NCBI GenBank assembly: GCA_036702865.1
Contig: DATNQD010000043.1
Location: forward strand, 1 to 64,000
Origin: Trichocoleus sp.
GTDB lineage: Bacteria; Cyanobacteriota; Cyanobacteriia; Elainellales; Elainellaceae
Length of the DNA stretch: 64,000 bases
Reading direction: 5' to 3'
Below are positions 3,993-29,230 of this stretch, one piece after another. The notes beneath the pieces are model-generated. The model had not been told where the DNA came from. It worked only from the letters and a program-made list of their open reading frames with translations, and did not search any database. The translations under genes were made by a program, and so were the position numbers. How positions within the stretch are numbered: the first letter of the stretch is position 1; every line of letters begins with the position of its first letter.

Positions 3993-4850
3993 ATGCTGTC
4001 AAACGCTTCATTCCAATCCCGCAATCAGGGCAGTCTGAACCAAACACTGAATCGCTCCCGTCTTTTTGGCTTTGGCTCTGATTATGGCGATAGCATCAAA
4101 GATGCTAAAAATGTCGGCAAACTAAAACAGGGGAAAAGCTATGATTATTCTGGCGATGTCGGTGGAAGCGACTTAGATTTCTTTAAGGTCAAGTTAGAGA
4201 AAGCTGGAAAGTTTTTTGCCACACTTACCAATAAGAGTGACGGCAACCAACCGATCGCCATAACGCTGCTCAACAAAAACGGGAAGGCAGTCAAAACTGG
4301 GGAGCAATTCCTGTTTTCTAACGTTGATGCAGGGCAAAGCCAGACACTATCAGTCGATCGCTTGAAGGCTGGAACCTACTATCTGCGACTGCAAAGCGAG
4401 GCAGGTAGAGACGAAGATTATGACCTGAAACTATCGCAGTCCGGCTCTAATTCACCAGGGTCATCCAGTGGTGGATTTAATCAAGCTGTTAATCTGGGTT
4501 CTCTGGCTTCTGGAGGCAGAATCAGCCGCTCTGGTACAGTTGGCGGCACTGATGTTGACTTCTACAGCTTTAATGTCAATAACACTAGCCGCATTTTTGC
4601 GACTCTGGACAATAGCAATACAAACGCTAACCCGATCGCGATTTCCATTCTCAACAGTCAGCGAAGCGTTGTCAAAACTGATAGTGGCAGGTTTCTGTTT
4701 AGTAATGTCAATGCTGGCGCAAGCGACACACTTTTTGCACCCACGCTGGCATCAGGAACCTACTATGTGCGAGTCCAGAGCGAAGTCGGGCGGAATGAAT
4801 CTTACAGTTTGGAATTAACGCGATCGAGTACAACAGTCACACCCATTTAA
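3993..4850 (+). CDS. Tandem PPC-domain protein
   Basis: The 285 residues consist of two closely similar PPC-like domains (about 30-149 and 161-277) joined by a Ser/Gly-rich linker. Each contains a GGxDxDF motif, an FLFSNV(D/N)AG strand, a (K/S)(A/S)GTYY(L/V)R strand and an RxExY closing motif. No signal peptide, catalytic residues or membrane segment is seen. The N-terminal 30 residues are Asn/Ser/Arg-rich, like those of the neighbouring single-PPC protein, so the two genes probably share ancestry. Function unknown; binding or adhesion outside the cell is a guess from the family. A clear terminator follows at 4897. Confidence 0.65.
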   Translation: MLSNASFQSRNQGSLNQTLNRSRLFGFGSDYGDSIKDAKNVGKLKQGKSYDYSGDVGGSDLDFFKVKLEKAGKFFATLTNKSDGNQPIAITLLNKNGKAVKTGEQFLFSNVDAGQSQTLSVDRLKAGTYYLRLQSEAGRDEDYDLKLSQSGSNSPGSSSGGFNQAVNLGSLASGGRISRSGTVGGTDVDFYSFNVNNTSRIFATLDNSNTNANPIAISILNSQRSVVKTDSGRFLFSNVNAGASDTLFAPTLASGTYYVRVQSEVGRNESYSLELTRSSTTVTPI

Positions 4851-14746: not shown

Positions 14747-17473
14747 GTGCCCTTCCTGCCGCAACTGCCTTCTCTCGCATCTAAACGATGGCTCATCTTG
14801 GTTGGGTTCCTGGCACTGCTCCTAGCTCATGGAACAGCCTTGCTCTTCCGAATTCAACCTGCTGTATCGCTCTGGTTTCCGCCTTCGGGAGTTGCGATCG
14901 TCCTTACGTTCTGGTTAGGGCCGGTCGGGGCAGTCTTGACGGGTATTGTGTCGGTTTTAATGGCTCCTGCCTGGGGGAGTGAAGGCTGGTATCGCTGGGC
15001 TGGCTTAACAGATATGCTAGAGCCGATCGTTGCCTGGTCTCTTTACCGCTATGTCTTTGGCGGCTCGCTTTTCTTAAACGGTTTGCAAAACGCTGTCGCA
15101 TTCCTTCTGAGTGCCCCAATTTTGGGTTGTGCCACTTCTGCGATCGTTGGGACAATTACGCTGGCTCTACTCGGTCAGATTCCGGTTGAAAACCTGGCAA
15201 CTGCAATTCCGCACTGGTGGGTGGGCAACGCGATCGGAACGATGGCAATTGTACCAGTAGCCCTCCTCTGGCTCACACCGATTCTCCAGCAATACGGTTG
15301 GCTACCTGAAACCAATCTCCTCTTCAGGTACAAAAACAATCCAGTGAGTGAGGTTTTGCCCCTGCGTCCGGCTCCCTTTCCCACGCCATTTCCCTGGGCA
15401 GAGATCGGAATGCTGCTTATTTTAAGCATAGGAACTTCCTGGGCAGCAGTGGTGCAGAGCCAACAGGCAGACTACTCCTTTCAGCTATTTTCGCTTCTCA
15501 GCTTTGTGCCAGTGCTCTGGTCGGCGATTCGGTTTGGCGTCGCTGGAGGAATGCTGATGACCAGCCTCTGCGTCATGCTGACTTTGGTGGGGTATTTGCT
15601 GGTCTACCCTCATGCAATTTCCCTACCTCAGTTTCCAGTCCCTTCAGGAGTGCTGTATGTGCACAAGTTTAGTTTGGTTGTGCAATGCATGGTTAGCTTG
15701 TGTGTTGGTACTGCCATTACAGAGATGACAGCTGCACAGGTCGCTTTAGCAGTAGAGCGGGTTCGATCGAGCGAAAGCCAGGCAAGGGCACAGTTAGCAG
15801 AACAACTCGTGCAGCTCAATCAATCTCTTACGGAAGCGAACCGCGAGTTACAGCATAGCGAGGAGCGATTTCGGACTTCGGTTGAAAATATGCTGGACTG
15901 TTTCGGCATCTACACCGCTTTGCGCGACGAGCCTGGAAGAATTACTGGATTTTGTACTGAATATATCAATACGGCTGCCTGCCAAAAAAGCCCTTTGTTC
16001 AAGGCAGAAACGGACAGCGAAGAATATTGCGATCGGTTAGCGATCCATCAGGACTCAGACCTGTTTCAGGCTTTTTGTTTGGTTGTGGAAACGGGTCAGC
16101 CACTCGTGCGAGATTCCTTGATCTATGAGGAGCTGGATGGTGAGCATCGCTTAAGCCAAGCTTTTGATATTCGGATTTCCAAGTTTGGTGACGGATTTGT
16201 AGCAACCTGGCGTGACATTACTGAACGCAAGCAGATCGAAGTTGAACGGGCTGAACTTCTGAGCCGTGAACAGGAAGCCCGCAAACAGGCTGAAGCCGCC
16301 AGCCGCACCAAAGACGAGTTTTTGGCAATTGTCTCTCATGAATTGCGATCGCCTTTGAGTGCCATATTAGGATGGTCGCGTCTGCTGGTTACACGTCAGA
16401 TGGACGAAACAACGACACGACGAGCTCTAGAAGCGATCGAACGCAATGCTCAGGCACAAACTCAACTAATCGAGGATCTGCTGGATATCTCACGGATCAT
16501 TCGGGGTAAAGTTCGTCTCTATACTCGTCCGGTGAGTTTGGTACAGGTTGTCGAAGCGGCGATCGACACGGTGCGTCCCACTGCCGATACCAAGTCAATT
16601 CAGATGCGCCTGGAAACCCATCATTCATCAGCTCCATTCCTGGTTTTGGGTGATCCCGATCGGCTGCAACAGGTTGTCTGGAATCTGCTGTTAAACGGCA
16701 TCAAGTTTACGCCAAATGAGGGGCAGGTAACAGTCCATCTGTCGGTTGAGGAAAACAGCACAGCCAGCAGCAACTCGGTAAAGAGCACAGCCTATGCTCA
16801 AATTCAGGTCATCGATACTGGCAAAGGAATCAGCGCAGAGTTTTTGCCCCAGGTGTTTGATCGGTTTCGGCAGGCAGAGAGTGCCACAACTCGAGTTCAT
16901 GGCGGCTTGGGTTTAGGCTTGGCGATCGTCCGGAGTCTGGTCGATCTCCATGGAGGCATCGTCGAGGCTGCGAGTGAAGGAGAGGGCAAAGGGGCAACAT
17001 TTACTGTTCGATTGCCGCTATTGCAGAAACAAGGTTCTCCAAGCGATCATGCCAACAGCAGCGATTCAGCAACGCCATCTTTTACTGAATTAAGCGGCTT
17101 AAACGTTGTCATTGTCGATGACGAACCAGATATCCGTGACCTTCTGGCAACTGTTCTCGAACAATATGGAGTACAGGTCACTCTAGCAAGCTCTGCGCGT
17201 GAAGTCATGGCTTTACTGCCTCAAATGCAGCCCGACTTGTTAATCAGCGATATTGGGATGCCAGTTGAAGATGGATATGATTTAATTCATCAGATTCGCC
17301 AGCTTCCGGCAGCTCAAGGTGGACAGGTTCCAGCAATTGCGCTCACTGCCTTTGCCAGAGAAGAAGACCGGGTGCGAGCGCTGAACGCAGGCTTCCAAAT
17401 GCACCTCTCCAAACCGATCGATCCGGCTCGTTTAGTCTTGGTTGTAGCTGGGCTTATGAGTCGTTTCAGGTAG
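14747..17473 (+). CDS. MASE1-PAS hybrid sensor histidine kinase with C-terminal receiver
   Basis: A 908-residue hybrid kinase. Residues 12-330 form a MASE1 sensor region of about eight to ten membrane helices, including the typical SLWFPPSGVAIVL. A coiled linker and a PAS-like domain (about 370-490) follow. HisKA carries FLAIVSHELRSPL with H531 as phosphorylated His; the HATPase has the N, G1 (DTGKGIS) and G2 (GGLGLGLAI) boxes. The receiver (about 785-905) has VDDEPD, the acceptor D835 in LISDIGMP and the conserved K in HLSKPID. The start is GTG at 14747. It ends 42 bp inside the convergent kinase gene. Signal unknown. Confidence 0.92.
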   Translation: MPFLPQLPSLASKRWLILVGFLALLLAHGTALLFRIQPAVSLWFPPSGVAIVLTFWLGPVGAVLTGIVSVLMAPAWGSEGWYRWAGLTDMLEPIVAWSLYRYVFGGSLFLNGLQNAVAFLLSAPILGCATSAIVGTITLALLGQIPVENLATAIPHWWVGNAIGTMAIVPVALLWLTPILQQYGWLPETNLLFRYKNNPVSEVLPLRPAPFPTPFPWAEIGMLLILSIGTSWAAVVQSQQADYSFQLFSLLSFVPVLWSAIRFGVAGGMLMTSLCVMLTLVGYLLVYPHAISLPQFPVPSGVLYVHKFSLVVQCMVSLCVGTAITEMTAAQVALAVERVRSSESQARAQLAEQLVQLNQSLTEANRELQHSEERFRTSVENMLDCFGIYTALRDEPGRITGFCTEYINTAACQKSPLFKAETDSEEYCDRLAIHQDSDLFQAFCLVVETGQPLVRDSLIYEELDGEHRLSQAFDIRISKFGDGFVATWRDITERKQIEVERAELLSREQEARKQAEAASRTKDEFLAIVSHELRSPLSAILGWSRLLVTRQMDETTTRRALEAIERNAQAQTQLIEDLLDISRIIRGKVRLYTRPVSLVQVVEAAIDTVRPTADTKSIQMRLETHHSSAPFLVLGDPDRLQQVVWNLLLNGIKFTPNEGQVTVHLSVEENSTASSNSVKSTAYAQIQVIDTGKGISAEFLPQVFDRFRQAESATTRVHGGLGLGLAIVRSLVDLHGGIVEAASEGEGKGATFTVRLPLLQKQGSPSDHANSSDSATPSFTELSGLNVVIVDDEPDIRDLLATVLEQYGVQVTLASSAREVMALLPQMQPDLLISDIGMPVEDGYDLIHQIRQLPAAQGGQVPAIALTAFAREEDRVRALNAGFQMHLSKPIDPARLVLVVAGLMSRFR

Positions 17474-20400
17474 AAAAGTAATCTTAAAACAGGTTCCCTC
17501 ACTGCGATCGAGTTCAATCTGTCCGCTCAGTTGTTCTGCAAGATTGCAAACCAGACGCAAGCCCAGAGAATGACTTTGGCGAAAATCAAAACCATCTGGT
17601 AGTCCAACGCCGTTATCGCTCACGACCAGTTCATAGCTGTCTCCCTGACCACGATGCAAATCAACAGTAATATCGCCCTTTTGATCTGTAGAAAAAGCAT
17701 ATTTGAGGGCATTAGAAACAAGTTCGTTAATGATTAAACCACAAGGAATTGCTACATCAACATTGAGAAACACATCAATGACATGAACATGAAACTGAAC
17801 AAAGCGAGAATTGAGGCTGTATGAACGGGCAATATCCAGAGTGAGGCTACGCACATAATCCGCAAAATTAATGTTCGCTAAATCTGGAGAGTGATAAAGC
17901 TTTTCGTGGATCAAAGCGATCGATCGAATTCGGTTTTGGCTATCTTTGAAGATCTCGAGCGCTTTCTCGTCCTGGACTGATTTTGCTTGAAGTTTGAGCA
18001 AACTAGAGATGATATAAAGATTATTTTTAACGCGATGGTGCACCTCTTGCAGCAAGACTTCTTTTTCCTTCAGCGATGCTCTGATCCGCGCCTCAGCCGA
18101 CTTTCGATCGCTAATATCAGTGACATGTACTAAATTGAGCAATCGGTTTGCGACCTGGATCTGTCGGGCTGCAATATTGCCCCAAAAAATACGACCGCGA
18201 CGGGTGACATATTCTAACTCCTGGCTCCACCCTCCATCAGTGTGGATTTTCTCCGCGATGGTTTGCAGGTCTGCGGCTGAGAAGCCATGACGTTGCAGCG
18301 TGTGTCCTTCAATGCCAATCAGTTCATCTTTGTTAACCGCCTCAAACAGCTCGATCGCCCGACGGTTGCAGTCGATGGTTAACAGCGTTTCGTTATCGAC
18401 TAGAAAGATTGCATCCGTTGATTCGTTAAAAATTGCCTCGCGCAAATCGCGGTTCCGGATGATCTCTAGCTCAGCCTGTTTACGAGCTGTAATGTCTTCT
18501 GCAATTCCAGCAATTCGGTAAAGCTTGCCTGCTTCATCCAGAATGGGGAAGGCGCGATCGTGAATCCAGCGAACTTCCTGGTTAGGACGAATAATGCGAT
18601 ACTCAATGTCGTAGTCTCCTCGGTACTGTTGCTGTTGAACGTCAAGAGTTACCACTTTAGCCTGATCGTCTGGGTAAATCGACTCTGCCCATTCTTCTGG
18701 GTTATGGAGCAGGGATTCTGTGCTGCGCCCCCAAATTCTTTCATAGGAAGGGCTGACATATTGCAGCCGCCCCTCCGCCTGTAAGTCAATCATCCAGAAT
18801 ACGTCTTCAATATTTTCAGTAAACTGGCGAAACCGGGCTTCACTTTCACGAAGCGCTTGCTCTGCTTGCTGACGCTCAGTAATATCTTCAGAGATGCAAA
18901 GAAGATACTCAGGTTGATGGTTCTGATCAAACAGTGGAACTTTTGTCGTGCGTAAAACTCTCAGTCCCAGCGTACGACTGCTCAGCGTTTCCTCGATCGC
19001 TCCTCGTGGTGTTCCCTGAGCAAAAGTCGCGCGATCCTCTTGTTCGTGCAGGTTTGCCTGCGCTTGTGGAAAGAGATAATCACTCGTTCTACCAACAATT
19101 TCAGCTGCATCTAAGCCAAACAATCGTTCACAAGTTTGATTAATTAGTAGCAACGAACCAAAGTGATCAGGCTGTCCATCTTTGACATAAAGCGCAACAG
19201 GTAGATGATCAATGACCGTCTTTAAAAAGTTTTGCGCCTGACGCAATTCAATTTCAATTTGCTGTCGTTGCTCGATCTCTGCTTGCAGTGTTTGGTTGGT
19301 TTGTCTGAGTTCAGCCGTACGTTCATCAACTCGTTGTTCTAGCTCTTGGTTAAGCTGTTGCAGCGCTGCTTCTGCCTGACGGCGATCATGGATATCCATG
19401 CAGCTACCAATAAATCCCAAAAACTTGCCAGTTGCGTCAAATCGTGGGACGCCATTGTCAACCATCCAACGAAATTCACCATCTGCTCGCCTCAAACGAT
19501 ATTCCACCGAAAAAGGTTGCTGAGTCTGGAACGAATCCAGACAAACGTCCAAACAATAACGAACATCATCAGGATGGATGCTTTCTGTCCAGCCCATGCC
19601 AATTTCCTGCTGAAGTTTGCGTTGGGTGAAATTAACCCAGCTTTGATTAACGTAGGTACAAGCTCCAGTCGCGTCGGAGAGCCAAATCAGCACAGGCGCG
19701 CTATCTGCCATGATGCGAAACCGGGCTTCACTCTCGCGCAGGGCTGCCTCAACCTGTCGCCGCTCTGTTACATCCCGAATAATGATTAAAACTTCGTCTT
19801 CCCCACTGACAACAATTCGGATTTCTTCATAGCGCACTTCCCCATCGACCACGATTTGCTGTTCGTATGCCTGGGGCGTTCCCGTTTCTAATGCTCGTCG
19901 AGTATAGTAGAGCCGCTGCTCCGCCAATTCCGGTGGCAAAATATCATAAACCGTACTGTCAGTAATTGGACTGGGAACAGCAATAACTTTGACTTCTCCT
20001 CCACTCAAAAACGAGAGATATCGTCCATCGTGCCGCATCCGAATCAGTAAATCAGGAATGGCTGCCAGAATCGCCTGATTGATCACTTCACTACGCCGAA
20101 ACTCTGCTTCAACTCGCTTGTAGGAGCTAATATCTCGCCCTTCTGGAATCAGCAGTACAACTCGTCCCTGCTCGTCTTTAATTGGACGGATGGAAAAATC
20201 GATCGTCATCTGCTCATTCACGCCAGAAATTTCCACTTCATAGCGGACAAACCGACCTGACGCTGCCTGTTCGATCGCCCATTGCAACTGTGCTTGTGCC
20301 TGGGTAGAGATACTTAGCCCAAAAATTCTCTGAAATGGACGATTGATCACCTGTTCGCGTTGTAGCCCACTAAATTTCAGAGCACTTTGGTTAATCTCGA

Positions 20401-21484
20401 GCAGCACGCCCGCTGTATTGAGTAAGCCTGTGAATTGAAATGTATTGTCAAAAATGGCGCGAAATCGACGTTCACTCTCCTGTAATTCAGTAGTCCGCTG
20501 TTCGACTTTGCCTTCTAATTCTGCATTCAGGATTTGTAAACCTTGATAAAGCTCGGCTTGCTGAATGCCGATCGATAGCTGAAGGGTTAACTGATCAAGC
20601 AAATCAATCTCAAAACCTTGCCAAACACGCGGCTTGGAGCATTGATGCACAATAAACAAGCCCCAGAGGTGCAGGGGTAGCGGTTGCTCATCCGCAACTT
20701 CGGTATTTTTGCCTTCTAACAAAATGGGTACAACCAGATTCGCCTTCACCTGAAATTGCTCCAGCAGCTGAACATGGCAGAGGCTCAAGCCTGCTTCATC
20801 AATATCGCTGGTTGCCCAAATTCTGCCACGCCGATAGTCTTCGCCCCGGCTCTCCTGAAAGCAAGTATCCTCGATCGTCAACCCCAAACTTGTGACCCAC
20901 GGTGGACAAACGGACTCAGCCACTACACAACCGCTCATATCTGCCGCAAATTGGTAGATCAAAACACGATCGGCTTGGAGCGACTGTCTCACCTCAGTTA
21001 CGGCTGTTTGCAGAATCTCGGTTAAGTTAAGCGACTGCCGAATTTGTAGGGTGATGGTTCGCAATAATCGCTGTTGCTCTAGCTGCTGCATCAGGGCAGA
21101 CTGTTCCAGAGCACCCTGCACCGAACGGCATAATTGCTCAGCCGTCAGATCTGGTTTGACGAGATAGTCTTGAGCACCATTTTTCATCGCTTGAACAGCG
21201 ATCGTCTCACTGCCAGCAGCACTCAGGATCACAACGGGTAACTGGCTGAAGTCTGGGTGCCGTTTCAGCAAGTCTAGAAACTCAAGTCCGTTACAGTCTG
21301 GCAGTTGATAGCTGAGCAAAATCAGATCGGGAACTGCTTGCTGGCATTGCGCAATTGCAGCTTCTCCAGTTTCAGCTTCAAAGATGCAATAGATATTGCG
21401 ATCGTCAGCTTCTAGAAAGCGCCGATAGCGGCGACGATCTTCTTGGGAGTCTTCAACGAGAAGGAGCGACAAGCAACGAGACAT
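17432..21484 (-). CDS. REC-GAF(cyanobacteriochrome-like)-PASx6-HisKA_2 sensor kinase
   Basis: A 1350-residue multidomain kinase. REC (5-125) has Ser58 where the acceptor Asp belongs (LILLSYQLP), although E11, D12 and K110 remain. GAF (about 145-310) has DTCF (206-209) and CH (C236-H237) in AGLSLCHVQLLEQF followed by VKANLVVPI, the DXCF and bilin-anchor motifs of cyanobacteriochromes. Six PAS domains follow, then HisKA_2 with EVHHRVKNN (H1149/H1150) and HATPase (NELVSNALKYA, DNGVGLP, LGLRLV). The start is ATG at 21484; a longer frame from 21526 is possible. It probably signals light to a separate response regulator, as no functional receiver is attached. Confidence 0.9.
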   Translation of the reverse strand: MSRCLSLLLVEDSQEDRRRYRRFLEADDRNIYCIFEAETGEAAIAQCQQAVPDLILLSYQLPDCNGLEFLDLLKRHPDFSQLPVVILSAAGSETIAVQAMKNGAQDYLVKPDLTAEQLCRSVQGALEQSALMQQLEQQRLLRTITLQIRQSLNLTEILQTAVTEVRQSLQADRVLIYQFAADMSGCVVAESVCPPWVTSLGLTIEDTCFQESRGEDYRRGRIWATSDIDEAGLSLCHVQLLEQFQVKANLVVPILLEGKNTEVADEQPLPLHLWGLFIVHQCSKPRVWQGFEIDLLDQLTLQLSIGIQQAELYQGLQILNAELEGKVEQRTTELQESERRFRAIFDNTFQFTGLLNTAGVLLEINQSALKFSGLQREQVINRPFQRIFGLSISTQAQAQLQWAIEQAASGRFVRYEVEISGVNEQMTIDFSIRPIKDEQGRVVLLIPEGRDISSYKRVEAEFRRSEVINQAILAAIPDLLIRMRHDGRYLSFLSGGEVKVIAVPSPITDSTVYDILPPELAEQRLYYTRRALETGTPQAYEQQIVVDGEVRYEEIRIVVSGEDEVLIIIRDVTERRQVEAALRESEARFRIMADSAPVLIWLSDATGACTYVNQSWVNFTQRKLQQEIGMGWTESIHPDDVRYCLDVCLDSFQTQQPFSVEYRLRRADGEFRWMVDNGVPRFDATGKFLGFIGSCMDIHDRRQAEAALQQLNQELEQRVDERTAELRQTNQTLQAEIEQRQQIEIELRQAQNFLKTVIDHLPVALYVKDGQPDHFGSLLLINQTCERLFGLDAAEIVGRTSDYLFPQAQANLHEQEDRATFAQGTPRGAIEETLSSRTLGLRVLRTTKVPLFDQNHQPEYLLCISEDITERQQAEQALRESEARFRQFTENIEDVFWMIDLQAEGRLQYVSPSYERIWGRSTESLLHNPEEWAESIYPDDQAKVVTLDVQQQQYRGDYDIEYRIIRPNQEVRWIHDRAFPILDEAGKLYRIAGIAEDITARKQAELEIIRNRDLREAIFNESTDAIFLVDNETLLTIDCNRRAIELFEAVNKDELIGIEGHTLQRHGFSAADLQTIAEKIHTDGGWSQELEYVTRRGRIFWGNIAARQIQVANRLLNLVHVTDISDRKSAEARIRASLKEKEVLLQEVHHRVKNNLYIISSLLKLQAKSVQDEKALEIFKDSQNRIRSIALIHEKLYHSPDLANINFADYVRSLTLDIARSYSLNSRFVQFHVHVIDVFLNVDVAIPCGLIINELVSNALKYAFSTDQKGDITVDLHRGQGDSYELVVSDNGVGLPDGFDFRQSHSLGLRLVCNLAEQLSGQIELDRSEGTCFKITFLPETTHKPSYNQD

Positions 21485-21590
21485 AAAGAAAACAGTGAGG
21501 CAGGGTGGAACGGCACATGATTTCAAATACCTTGATTTTTCCCTGAATCTGGATTGAGCAAACAGTGATAGGTTTCTCTCCCAATTTGCC

Positions 21591-26560: not shown

Positions 26561-29230
26561 ATGCTAATAACGCAGTGGTTTATTGAACGTAAAGTGATGG
26601 CAAGCTTTGGGGTTGCCTTGTCTGGTCTGGTGACCATGAGCACAGTTGCCTTCCTGAACTGGGAGCGCTTTCAAGCTTCGACGAGTGAAGTAGAACATAC
26701 TTATCAGGTGATTGATAATCTGGAAAAAATCCGCTCCCAGGTAAAAGACGCCGAAACAGGGCAGCGTGGCTACTTGCTCACGGCAGACGATCGCTATCTT
26801 GCCCCCTACCACTCTGCACTACAATCCATCCAGCCAGAACTACAGTCTCTCAAACAACTTACCGCAGATAGCCCGCTTCAGCAGCAGCGAATTGACCAGC
26901 TCGATCGGTTGATTGATGAAAAGCTCGCAGAACTACAAGAAACCATCACGCTTCGCCAAACTCAAAACCTGGAAGCCTCTCTACGCGTGGTGCAAACCGA
27001 TCGCGGTCAGCAGATCATGGAGCAGATTCGCCATCTGACAAAAATCATGGAGGTTGAGGAGCAGAACTTACTCAAGCAACGGTCACAAACGGCTGCTGTT
27101 CTTGCTCGTGATACGGCTTTGTTTATCGTTTTGGGCAGTGTTTGGGCGATCGGTTCAGTTGGCATTGCGCTCCACCTGCTCAACCAAAACATTGCTCAGC
27201 GGCGGCAAGTCGAGGGCATTCTCAATGCAGAGCTAGAAGCGCGCGTGGCAGACCGAACAGTTCAGCTAGAAATGGCATATCAGGCAAAAGATGGGCTGCT
27301 TCAACAGGAACAGGCTGCCCGATCGCAAGCCGAACAAATGCAGGCTCAGATCACACGGACTCTGGAACGCCTGACGGATGGCTTTCTTGCCCTCAACCAT
27401 GAATGGCAAATCACCTTTGTCAATCCGGCTGCCCTGGAAATGCTAGAAAAGCATGGAATGCCGAGATCACCCCAAGAGTTGCTCAATCAAAATTTTTGGC
27501 GGATTTTTCCTGAAGCTGCTGGCACTACCTTTGAGCAGGAATATCGACGGGCAGTTGCCGAACAAACCAAAGTCGAATTTGAAGCCTTTTACCCGTCGCT
27601 TGACCTCTGGCTTGATGTCAATGCCTACCCCTCTGAAGATGGGCTGTCAATTTATTGCAAAGATATTACCGATCGCAAGCGCAGTGAAACATTACTCCAG
27701 CAAAGTGAAGCCCGCTTTCGTCACCTGATTGCCTCCAATATTATTGGAGTGGTTGTGGGCAATTTTCAGGGCGATATTCTGGAAGCAAACAATGCTTTCT
27801 TGCAGTTAGTTGGCTATAGTCCCGAAGACTTGCAGCAGGGGCGAATCCAGTGGAGCAAGCTCACGCCGCCCGAATGGTTCCATCTGGATTTAGAATCTCA
27901 GCAGCAGATGCAGGAAACCGGAATTTCCATTCCCTTTGAGAAGGAATACTTTCGGGCAGATGGAAGTCGCGTTCCAGTCTTGATTGGTGCTGCCTTATTA
28001 GAAGGAGCTGAGGATGTGGCAGTTGCCTTTGTCCTGGACTTGAGCGATCGGAAACAGATGGAAGCAACGCTCCGCCAGCAAACTCTAGAACTGGAAAAAG
28101 CCAGCGGTTTGAAAGATGAATTCCTGGCAGTCGTGTCGCATGAACTCCGCACCCCGCTCAACTCGGTCTTGGGCTGGTCGCAATTGCTGATCGATCGCGG
28201 CGTTGAAACAACATTGATGCAGCAAGGGCTTCAAAGCATTCAGCGCAATGCTCAACTGCAAAAGCAAATTGTCGATGATATTCTCGATGTGTCTCAGATT
28301 ATTCAGGGACAACTGCGAATGGCAGCAACTGCCCAAAACCTGATCCCGATTATTCACGCGGCGATCGATGCGGTTCATCCGGCGGCTGATGCAAAGCAAA
28401 TTCAAATACGCTCGATCTTGAATCCGGCAGGGGGGGTAATCCTGGGAGATGCCGATCGGCTACAGCAGGTGGTCTGGAATCTGCTCTCAAACGCCATCAA
28501 ATTCACGCCCAAAGGGGGTCAGGTCGAGGTGCGTCTGGAGCAGGCTGGCACGGATCTGGAACTTTGCATCCGCGATAACGGCATCGGCATCAGTCCAGAA
28601 TTCTTGCCTCATGTGTTCGATCGCTTCCGGCAGGAAGACAGCAGCAGCACGCGCAGCTATAGTGGCTTAGGGTTGGGCTTGGCGATCGTACGGCAACTAG
28701 TTGAGATGCATGGCGGCACAGTGTGGGCAGAAAGCCAGGGACAGGGGCAGGGAGCAACATTTACAGTGCAGTTGCCGATCATGGCAGTTCAGTCCCCCCT
28801 TGTCGATGCGGCTCCCGGGACAGCGCAAAGTCAGATTGACTTGAATGAAGAAATTTTGCGAGGGATCAAGGTGCTGGTTGTAGATGATGAGGCAGATGTG
28901 CGAGAGCTGGTTTCGATCGCACTTGAAGCATATGGTGCAACAGTCACGACTGCCCGATCAACCGCTGAAGCTTTAGCCTTGTTCGATCGCGTCCAGCCAG
29001 ACGTATTGGTTAGCGATATTGGGATGCCCGAAGAAAATGGCTATGTCCTGATTCGCCGCCTCCGCGACCTGGAAGCCGAACGGGGTAGCCAAATTCCGGC
29101 AATCGCCCTGACTGCTTATGCTCAGGAAGAAGACCGTAGACAGGTCTTCCGAGCCGGATTCCAAGCTCATTTAGCCAAACCGATCGAACCGGATGCACTG
29201 ATTGTGGCGATCGGCAGTTTGATCGAGTAA
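26561..29230 (+). CDS. CHASE3-PAS-PAS hybrid sensor histidine kinase with C-terminal receiver
   Basis: 889 residues. An N-terminal helix (about 12-33), an extracytoplasmic CHASE3 domain (about 35-175, with AETGQRGYLLTADDRYL) and a second helix (about 183-207) form the sensor. Two PAS domains follow (about 265-370 and 382-497). HisKA has FLAVVSHELRTPL with H527; HATPase has DNGIGIS and GLGLGLAIV. The receiver (about 770-888) has VDDEAD, D819 in LVSDIGMP and K in HLAKPIE. Its kinase-receiver half closely resembles that of the MASE1 kinase at 14747. Start ATG 26561; an internal Met at codon 13 is an alternative. Confidence 0.92.
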   Translation: MLITQWFIERKVMASFGVALSGLVTMSTVAFLNWERFQASTSEVEHTYQVIDNLEKIRSQVKDAETGQRGYLLTADDRYLAPYHSALQSIQPELQSLKQLTADSPLQQQRIDQLDRLIDEKLAELQETITLRQTQNLEASLRVVQTDRGQQIMEQIRHLTKIMEVEEQNLLKQRSQTAAVLARDTALFIVLGSVWAIGSVGIALHLLNQNIAQRRQVEGILNAELEARVADRTVQLEMAYQAKDGLLQQEQAARSQAEQMQAQITRTLERLTDGFLALNHEWQITFVNPAALEMLEKHGMPRSPQELLNQNFWRIFPEAAGTTFEQEYRRAVAEQTKVEFEAFYPSLDLWLDVNAYPSEDGLSIYCKDITDRKRSETLLQQSEARFRHLIASNIIGVVVGNFQGDILEANNAFLQLVGYSPEDLQQGRIQWSKLTPPEWFHLDLESQQQMQETGISIPFEKEYFRADGSRVPVLIGAALLEGAEDVAVAFVLDLSDRKQMEATLRQQTLELEKASGLKDEFLAVVSHELRTPLNSVLGWSQLLIDRGVETTLMQQGLQSIQRNAQLQKQIVDDILDVSQIIQGQLRMAATAQNLIPIIHAAIDAVHPAADAKQIQIRSILNPAGGVILGDADRLQQVVWNLLSNAIKFTPKGGQVEVRLEQAGTDLELCIRDNGIGISPEFLPHVFDRFRQEDSSSTRSYSGLGLGLAIVRQLVEMHGGTVWAESQGQGQGATFTVQLPIMAVQSPLVDAAPGTAQSQIDLNEEILRGIKVLVVDDEADVRELVSIALEAYGATVTTARSTAEALALFDRVQPDVLVSDIGMPEENGYVLIRRLRDLEAERGSQIPAIALTAYAQEEDRRQVFRAGFQAHLAKPIEPDALIVAIGSLIE

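Follow-up and report, generated by a model that had tools for sequence, protein, structure and literature searches.

The window, a stretch of 64,000 nucleotides of a Trichocoleus sp. contig, contains on its minus strand the CDS of a 1,350-aa kinase (17432-21484). The open reading frame extends over 17432-21526 and comprises 1,364 aa from a TTG at 21526; the internal ATG at 21484 lies close to the start of the receiver domains in relatives, according to a sequence comparison made with the L025 row left out. The protein begins with a receiver domain (Response_reg, 21128-21463, 76.7 bits) that is similar to the one in PPHK. It is followed by a DXCF-type cyanobacteriochrome GAF domain (20555-21037), an array of at least five PAS domains (18077-20422, Pfam and NCBIfam PAS models, residues 369 to about 1150 in the numbering of the 1,364-aa frame), a HisKA_2 dimerisation/phosphoacceptor domain with the motif HHRVKNN (17819-18046, Pfam) and a HATPase_c catalytic domain (17468-17737, Pfam), all on the minus strand. 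Both kinase domains score above their Pfam cut-offs (HisKA_2 with 99.5 bits against 22.3, HATPase_c with 52 bits against 26.4), which identifies the protein as a HisKA_2 sensor histidine kinase. These matches and the frame from the ATG bear out the 1,350-residue kinase described in an initial annotation of this DNA.

The nearest other kinases are a MASE1 hybrid and a CHASE3 hybrid. The MASE1 hybrid kinase gene (14747-17473, plus strand) is convergent with the kinase gene, and the 3' ends of the two overlap by 42 bases (17432-17473). The second large sensor kinase nearby is a CHASE3-PAS hybrid histidine kinase with a receiver (26561-29230, plus strand). No dedicated response regulator adjoining the kinase was detected among the 10 ORFs of one scan and the kinase and 3 neighbours of another. 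At 1e-30, none of the DUF4336, glycosyltransferase, MFS and AI-2E-like neighbours (the last a name that we assume to be appropriate) is matched in the 32 loci L021-L052. A neighbourhood common to the window and the Nostoc-type loci was considered and dropped; the kinase matches there look generic.

The GAF region is open on the minus strand over its whole length (161 aa), with several stops on the plus strand, and matches Pfam GAF at 20564-21028 with 68.1 bits (cut-off 22.4). In the 1,350-aa numbering DTCF occupies residues 206-209 (20858-20869, minus strand) and the Cys-His pair residues 236-237 (20774-20779, minus strand), exactly where the initial annotation had placed them; VKANLVVPI and the LWGLFIVHQCSKPR strand, also named there, are both present in the translated region. 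Cys208 is the candidate second Cys, which would form the adduct at C10 of the bilin, and Cys236 with the adjoining His is, by alignment, the canonical bilin-attachment site. The presence of both Cys motifs of the DXCF type was likewise confirmed, as the two columns are homologous to Cys494 and Cys522 of TePixJ, IEDTCF aligns with the IEDPCF of that protein, and the spacing of 28 residues between the cysteines is identical. In a 115-row alignment, 66 other sequences, TePixJ among them, have D, C, F, C and H/Y in the corresponding homologous columns. A chance motif was rejected on the basis of these columns and the common Cys spacing. The window GAF has the common residue at 66 of the 70 columns that are conserved in at least 70% of the 66 other two-Cys rows.

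TePixJ (DXCF type, blue/green; PDB 3VV4, 4FOF, 4GLQ) also resembles the window GAF in having Ile at the position of the Trp of the XRG types. It differs in being a methyl-accepting chemotaxis protein, whereas the window protein is a kinase. The residues His498 and Trp499 of TePixJ, which bind the B-ring propionate (excerpt of PMC6955287), correspond to Ser and Arg in the window GAF, a point against the photosensor reading, and are not conserved among the 66 two-Cys rows. The XRG (extended red/green) type is defined by a WXDXXL motif, as stated in excerpts of PMC11284453. On its motif this type was rejected, as the Trp is missing and IEDTCF takes the place of WXDXXL; its members AnPixJg2, NpR6012g4 and Slr1393g3 share the fold and the canonical Cys-His with the window GAF, but the second Cys is present in the window GAF. 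The RcaE type was likewise rejected on its motif, which is different. A literature search of limited coverage for a cyanobacteriochrome with DTCF yielded no paper.

The AF2 model of the GAF domain has a pLDDT of 92.5 and a pTM of 0.89, and its best Foldseek match is PPHK (E = 7.8e-20). VIA Z scores are 24.4 to 6mgh (rmsd 1.2 over 146), 23.6 to PPHK 6ob8 (2.2 over 166), 23.6 to AnPixJg2 3w2z (1.6 over 163) and 23.2 to TePixJ 4glq (2.0 over 149, 42% identity); these are near ties. At 1e-5, 23 PDB sequences match the GAF, the best including PPHK (154 bits), miRFP670nano (123), RcaE (114) and TePixJ (108). From the entry names we take all 23 to be cyanobacteriochromes, phytochromes or fluorescent proteins derived from them, and the solved structures closest to the window GAF are GAFs that bind bilin. 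The best relatives by sequence, PPHK and the NpR3784-derived miRFP670nano, are not of the DXCF type, which counts against the DXCF reading. They would fit a GAF that binds phycocyanobilin with a second-Cys adduct that does not work, and that passes through a red/green photocycle like those of PPHK and NpR3784, as would an AU p-value of 0.091 for the grouping with these two and the Thr after the motif Asp, found in red/green types. Most two-Cys rows (51 of 66), however, have this Thr as well, and the window GAF possesses the second Cys and the Phe of the DXCF type and neither the WXDXXL Trp nor a PPHK-like beta-1 Phe. A red/green photocycle is regarded as highly improbable.

Two trees were built without the motif and Cys-His columns. 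The more careful one comprises 79 rows and 147 columns, and its bootstrap had not fully converged. In it the window GAF and 12 Nostoc orthologs form a group with a support of 99/92, within a clade of 42 rows that are mainly DTCF (98/95); both Cys occur in most rows of this clade, L032 with DTYF being one of the exceptions. The TePixJ, RcaE-type and NpR3784/PPHK rows fall outside the clade, as do the XRG rows, which form a branch separate from the window GAF. AU tests were run on a 54-row set, where the constrained trees were worse by 3.6 to 23.6 log units; grouping the window GAF with other reference sets gave p-values of 0.426 (XRG), 0.392 (RcaE-type), 0.41 (TePixJ) and 0.091 (NpR3784/PPHK). 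The support values and the AU tests together indicate that the near placement is good and that the deep placement is compatible with several groupings. As to the phylogenetic check proposed in the initial annotation, the grouping with two-Cys GAFs was obtained (98/95), and groupings with the XRG, RcaE-type and NpR3784/PPHK GAFs were not rejected. The named anchors were PDB chains, with Tlr0924, Tlr1999 and the Nostoc punctiforme set, which are characterised DXCF lineages, left out.

The source genome (5.93 Mb, 90 contigs) encodes one PF05996 protein and one heme oxygenase. NCBIfam assigns the former to PcyA, the phycocyanobilin enzyme, with 339.9 bits against a cut-off of 206. With both genes present, phycocyanobilin is the expected bilin. 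The giant kinase with a DXCF-type cyanobacteriochrome GAF that the initial annotation proposed is supported by the motif columns and their conservation, the tree, the AF2 fold, the PDB matches and the PcyA and heme oxygenase genes. The window GAF is a putative covalent bilin binder, and chromophore binding, photocycle and colours are predicted from its sequence; as a photosensor it would add one more to a large family that has been studied well.

The blue dark state of DXCF types arises when the second Cys is added to C10, and the bilin is typically isomerised to phycoviolobilin with a green photoproduct, as described in excerpts of PMC11284453. Excerpts of PMC5240096 report a beta-2 Phe paired with a helix Phe (positions III and X) in teal and red/green types, and use of the beta-1 Phe in the NpR3784 group. 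At the beta-1, beta-2 and helix positions, mapped by inference from spacing, the window GAF has Leu, Val and Phe, TePixJ Ile, Val and Leu, and PPHK Phe, Val and Phe. The residues of the window GAF would favour a blue/green over a teal photocycle, or blue/yellow-orange if phycocyanobilin is not isomerised. A blue/teal photocycle with a trapped-twist photoproduct, which would change the colour and leave the sensor type the same, could draw on the helix Phe; the beta-2 Phe of the red/green and teal types is replaced by Val, as in TePixJ, and this colour pair is considered unlikely.

PPHK comes from Leptolyngbya sp. JSC-1 (excerpt of PMC11480761). Like the window kinase, it is a histidine kinase whose N-terminal receiver leads directly into a cyanobacteriochrome GAF (PDB 6OAP, 6OAQ, 6OB8). 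Its full name is phosphorylation-responsive photosensitive histidine kinase, and it is a dual sensor; the study of it reportedly found a logical OR of the phosphate signal and the light signal. Its structures include a BeF3-bound state. Receiver and GAF of the window kinase align unbroken to PPHK over about 309 residues (E = 1.8e-86), the region covered by the likeness, and the receiver is joined to the GAF ahead of the kinase as in the PPHK type. The two proteins differ at both sites: in PPHK the motif reads VEDQYF, in which the second Cys is missing, and the receiver carries an Asp, whereas the window protein has IEDTCF, and the phosphorylatable Asp of its receiver is replaced by Ser58 (codon AGC, 21313-21311 on the minus strand), as determined by comparison with relatives. 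Neither the lost phospho-Asp nor the PPHK-like architecture was mentioned in the initial annotation. With the window receiver as query, matches were found in 61 of 117 loci scanned, with Asp in 59, Asn in two and Ser in none; about 10 of the 61 are repeat copies of one gene, both Asn are one gene counted twice, and some weaker matches may be receivers located elsewhere in a protein. The Ser-bearing receiver rests on the one window sequence and is a single case.

In the reading that we consider very probable, a two-Cys DXCF photosensor GAF controls the kinase, and light is probably the main input of the receiver-GAF module. Phycocyanobilin would be attached to Cys236, and Cys208 would add reversibly to C10 to give a dark state absorbing in the blue (or violet). 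Light would isomerise the 15,16 double bond, the second bond would break, and a longer-wavelength state would result; green is its most likely colour after isomerisation of the bilin to phycoviolobilin, yellow to orange without it. The signal would leave the GAF by its exit helix and reach the HisKA_2/HATPase kinase by way of the PAS array. The receiver with Ser58 would be unable to accept phosphate at the usual Asp, which leaves light as the probable main input of the module.

In a phylum-wide sample of 386 genomes, 15, the source genome among them, contain a sequence that matches the window GAF at 1e-50. The Nostoc REC-GAF-PASn-HisKA_2 kinases (such as L021, L024, L027 and L031) share the architecture of the window kinase, and their GAFs are sister to the window GAF (99/92), with 64-69% identity among the ten clade rows listed. 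PAS-HisKA_2-HATPase follows the GAF in all six scanned Nostoc orthologs, and a receiver is present in four of them, with none in L028 and L035. In L035 (Nostoc sp. XA010) the GAF at 4024-4554 has an insertion of about 24 residues just before NTCF and is without the canonical Cys. Among 217 genomes of one family, taken as Nostocaceae from the named Nostoc copies, the Nostoc GAF has close orthologs in 25, all under one genus code. Ortholog L051 has a broken reading frame.

Asp, second Cys, canonical Cys and His are all kept in 15 of these 25 orthologs, and at least one is missing in the other 10 (Asp in five, second Cys in three, canonical Cys in three, His in two, overlapping). A 32-row tree shows at least six changes between an intact and a lost bilin site. 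In 21 of the 25 the receiver motif pattern could be located, 20 times with Asp and once with Asn. The median dN/dS of the sister-clade GAFs is 0.21 (66 pairs), against 0.07-0.15 for kinase domains (15 pairs) and 0.14 for a control GAF clade (15 pairs, mostly saturated), a crude comparison with control-clade dS mostly above 1. The Nostoc GAFs thus remain constrained despite a frequently damaged bilin site, and the family seemingly does not need bilin in every member.

These losses, together with purifying selection that persists all the same, would agree with a GAF that retains the cyanobacteriochrome fold and cysteines and acts as a structural or small-molecule domain, as maybe in the Nostoc orthologs, with no photosensing. 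The window protein, with every bilin-site residue in place, the common residue at nearly all conserved columns and genes for phycocyanobilin synthesis in its genome, makes this quite improbable for the window GAF. In the Nostoc orthologs the receiver Asp is mostly kept and the bilin site often damaged, the opposite of the state in the window protein. It is conceivable, although we rate it as less likely than not, that receiver-plus-cyanobacteriochrome kinases had two inputs at the start and are now reduced to one, in opposite directions by lineage. Under this tentative scheme, the phosphate site would have been lost in the window lineage with the light site retained, and the Nostoc orthologs would have retained the phosphate site and repeatedly lost parts of the light site. 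The proteins form a natural set of variants, with the receiver site gone (window protein), the bilin site partly gone (orthologs) or both intact (orthologs), and would make it possible to test directly how control of one kinase is divided between a receiver and a photoreceptor GAF.

The source genome is rich in cyanobacteriochrome-like GAFs, with 41 places similar to the window GAF at E = 0.001. Two open frames of 1,394 aa (G000:C86:116688-119390 and G000:C71:10013-12517) each contain at least five tandem GAF matches. Tandem GAFs of L013 (1501-1944; G000:C71:11585-12028) and L015 (1501-1941; G000:C71:11069-11509) group with XRG; WXDXXL is replaced there by IxDTCL, with a Cys at the second-Cys position, which looks like a second Cys regained inside the XRG lineage. 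Cys-Leu stands at the canonical site in the GAFs of L083 and L085 (G000:C25:26401-26856 and G000:C17:172242-172694), and their WTDACL combines the XRG Trp with a Cys at the second-Cys position.
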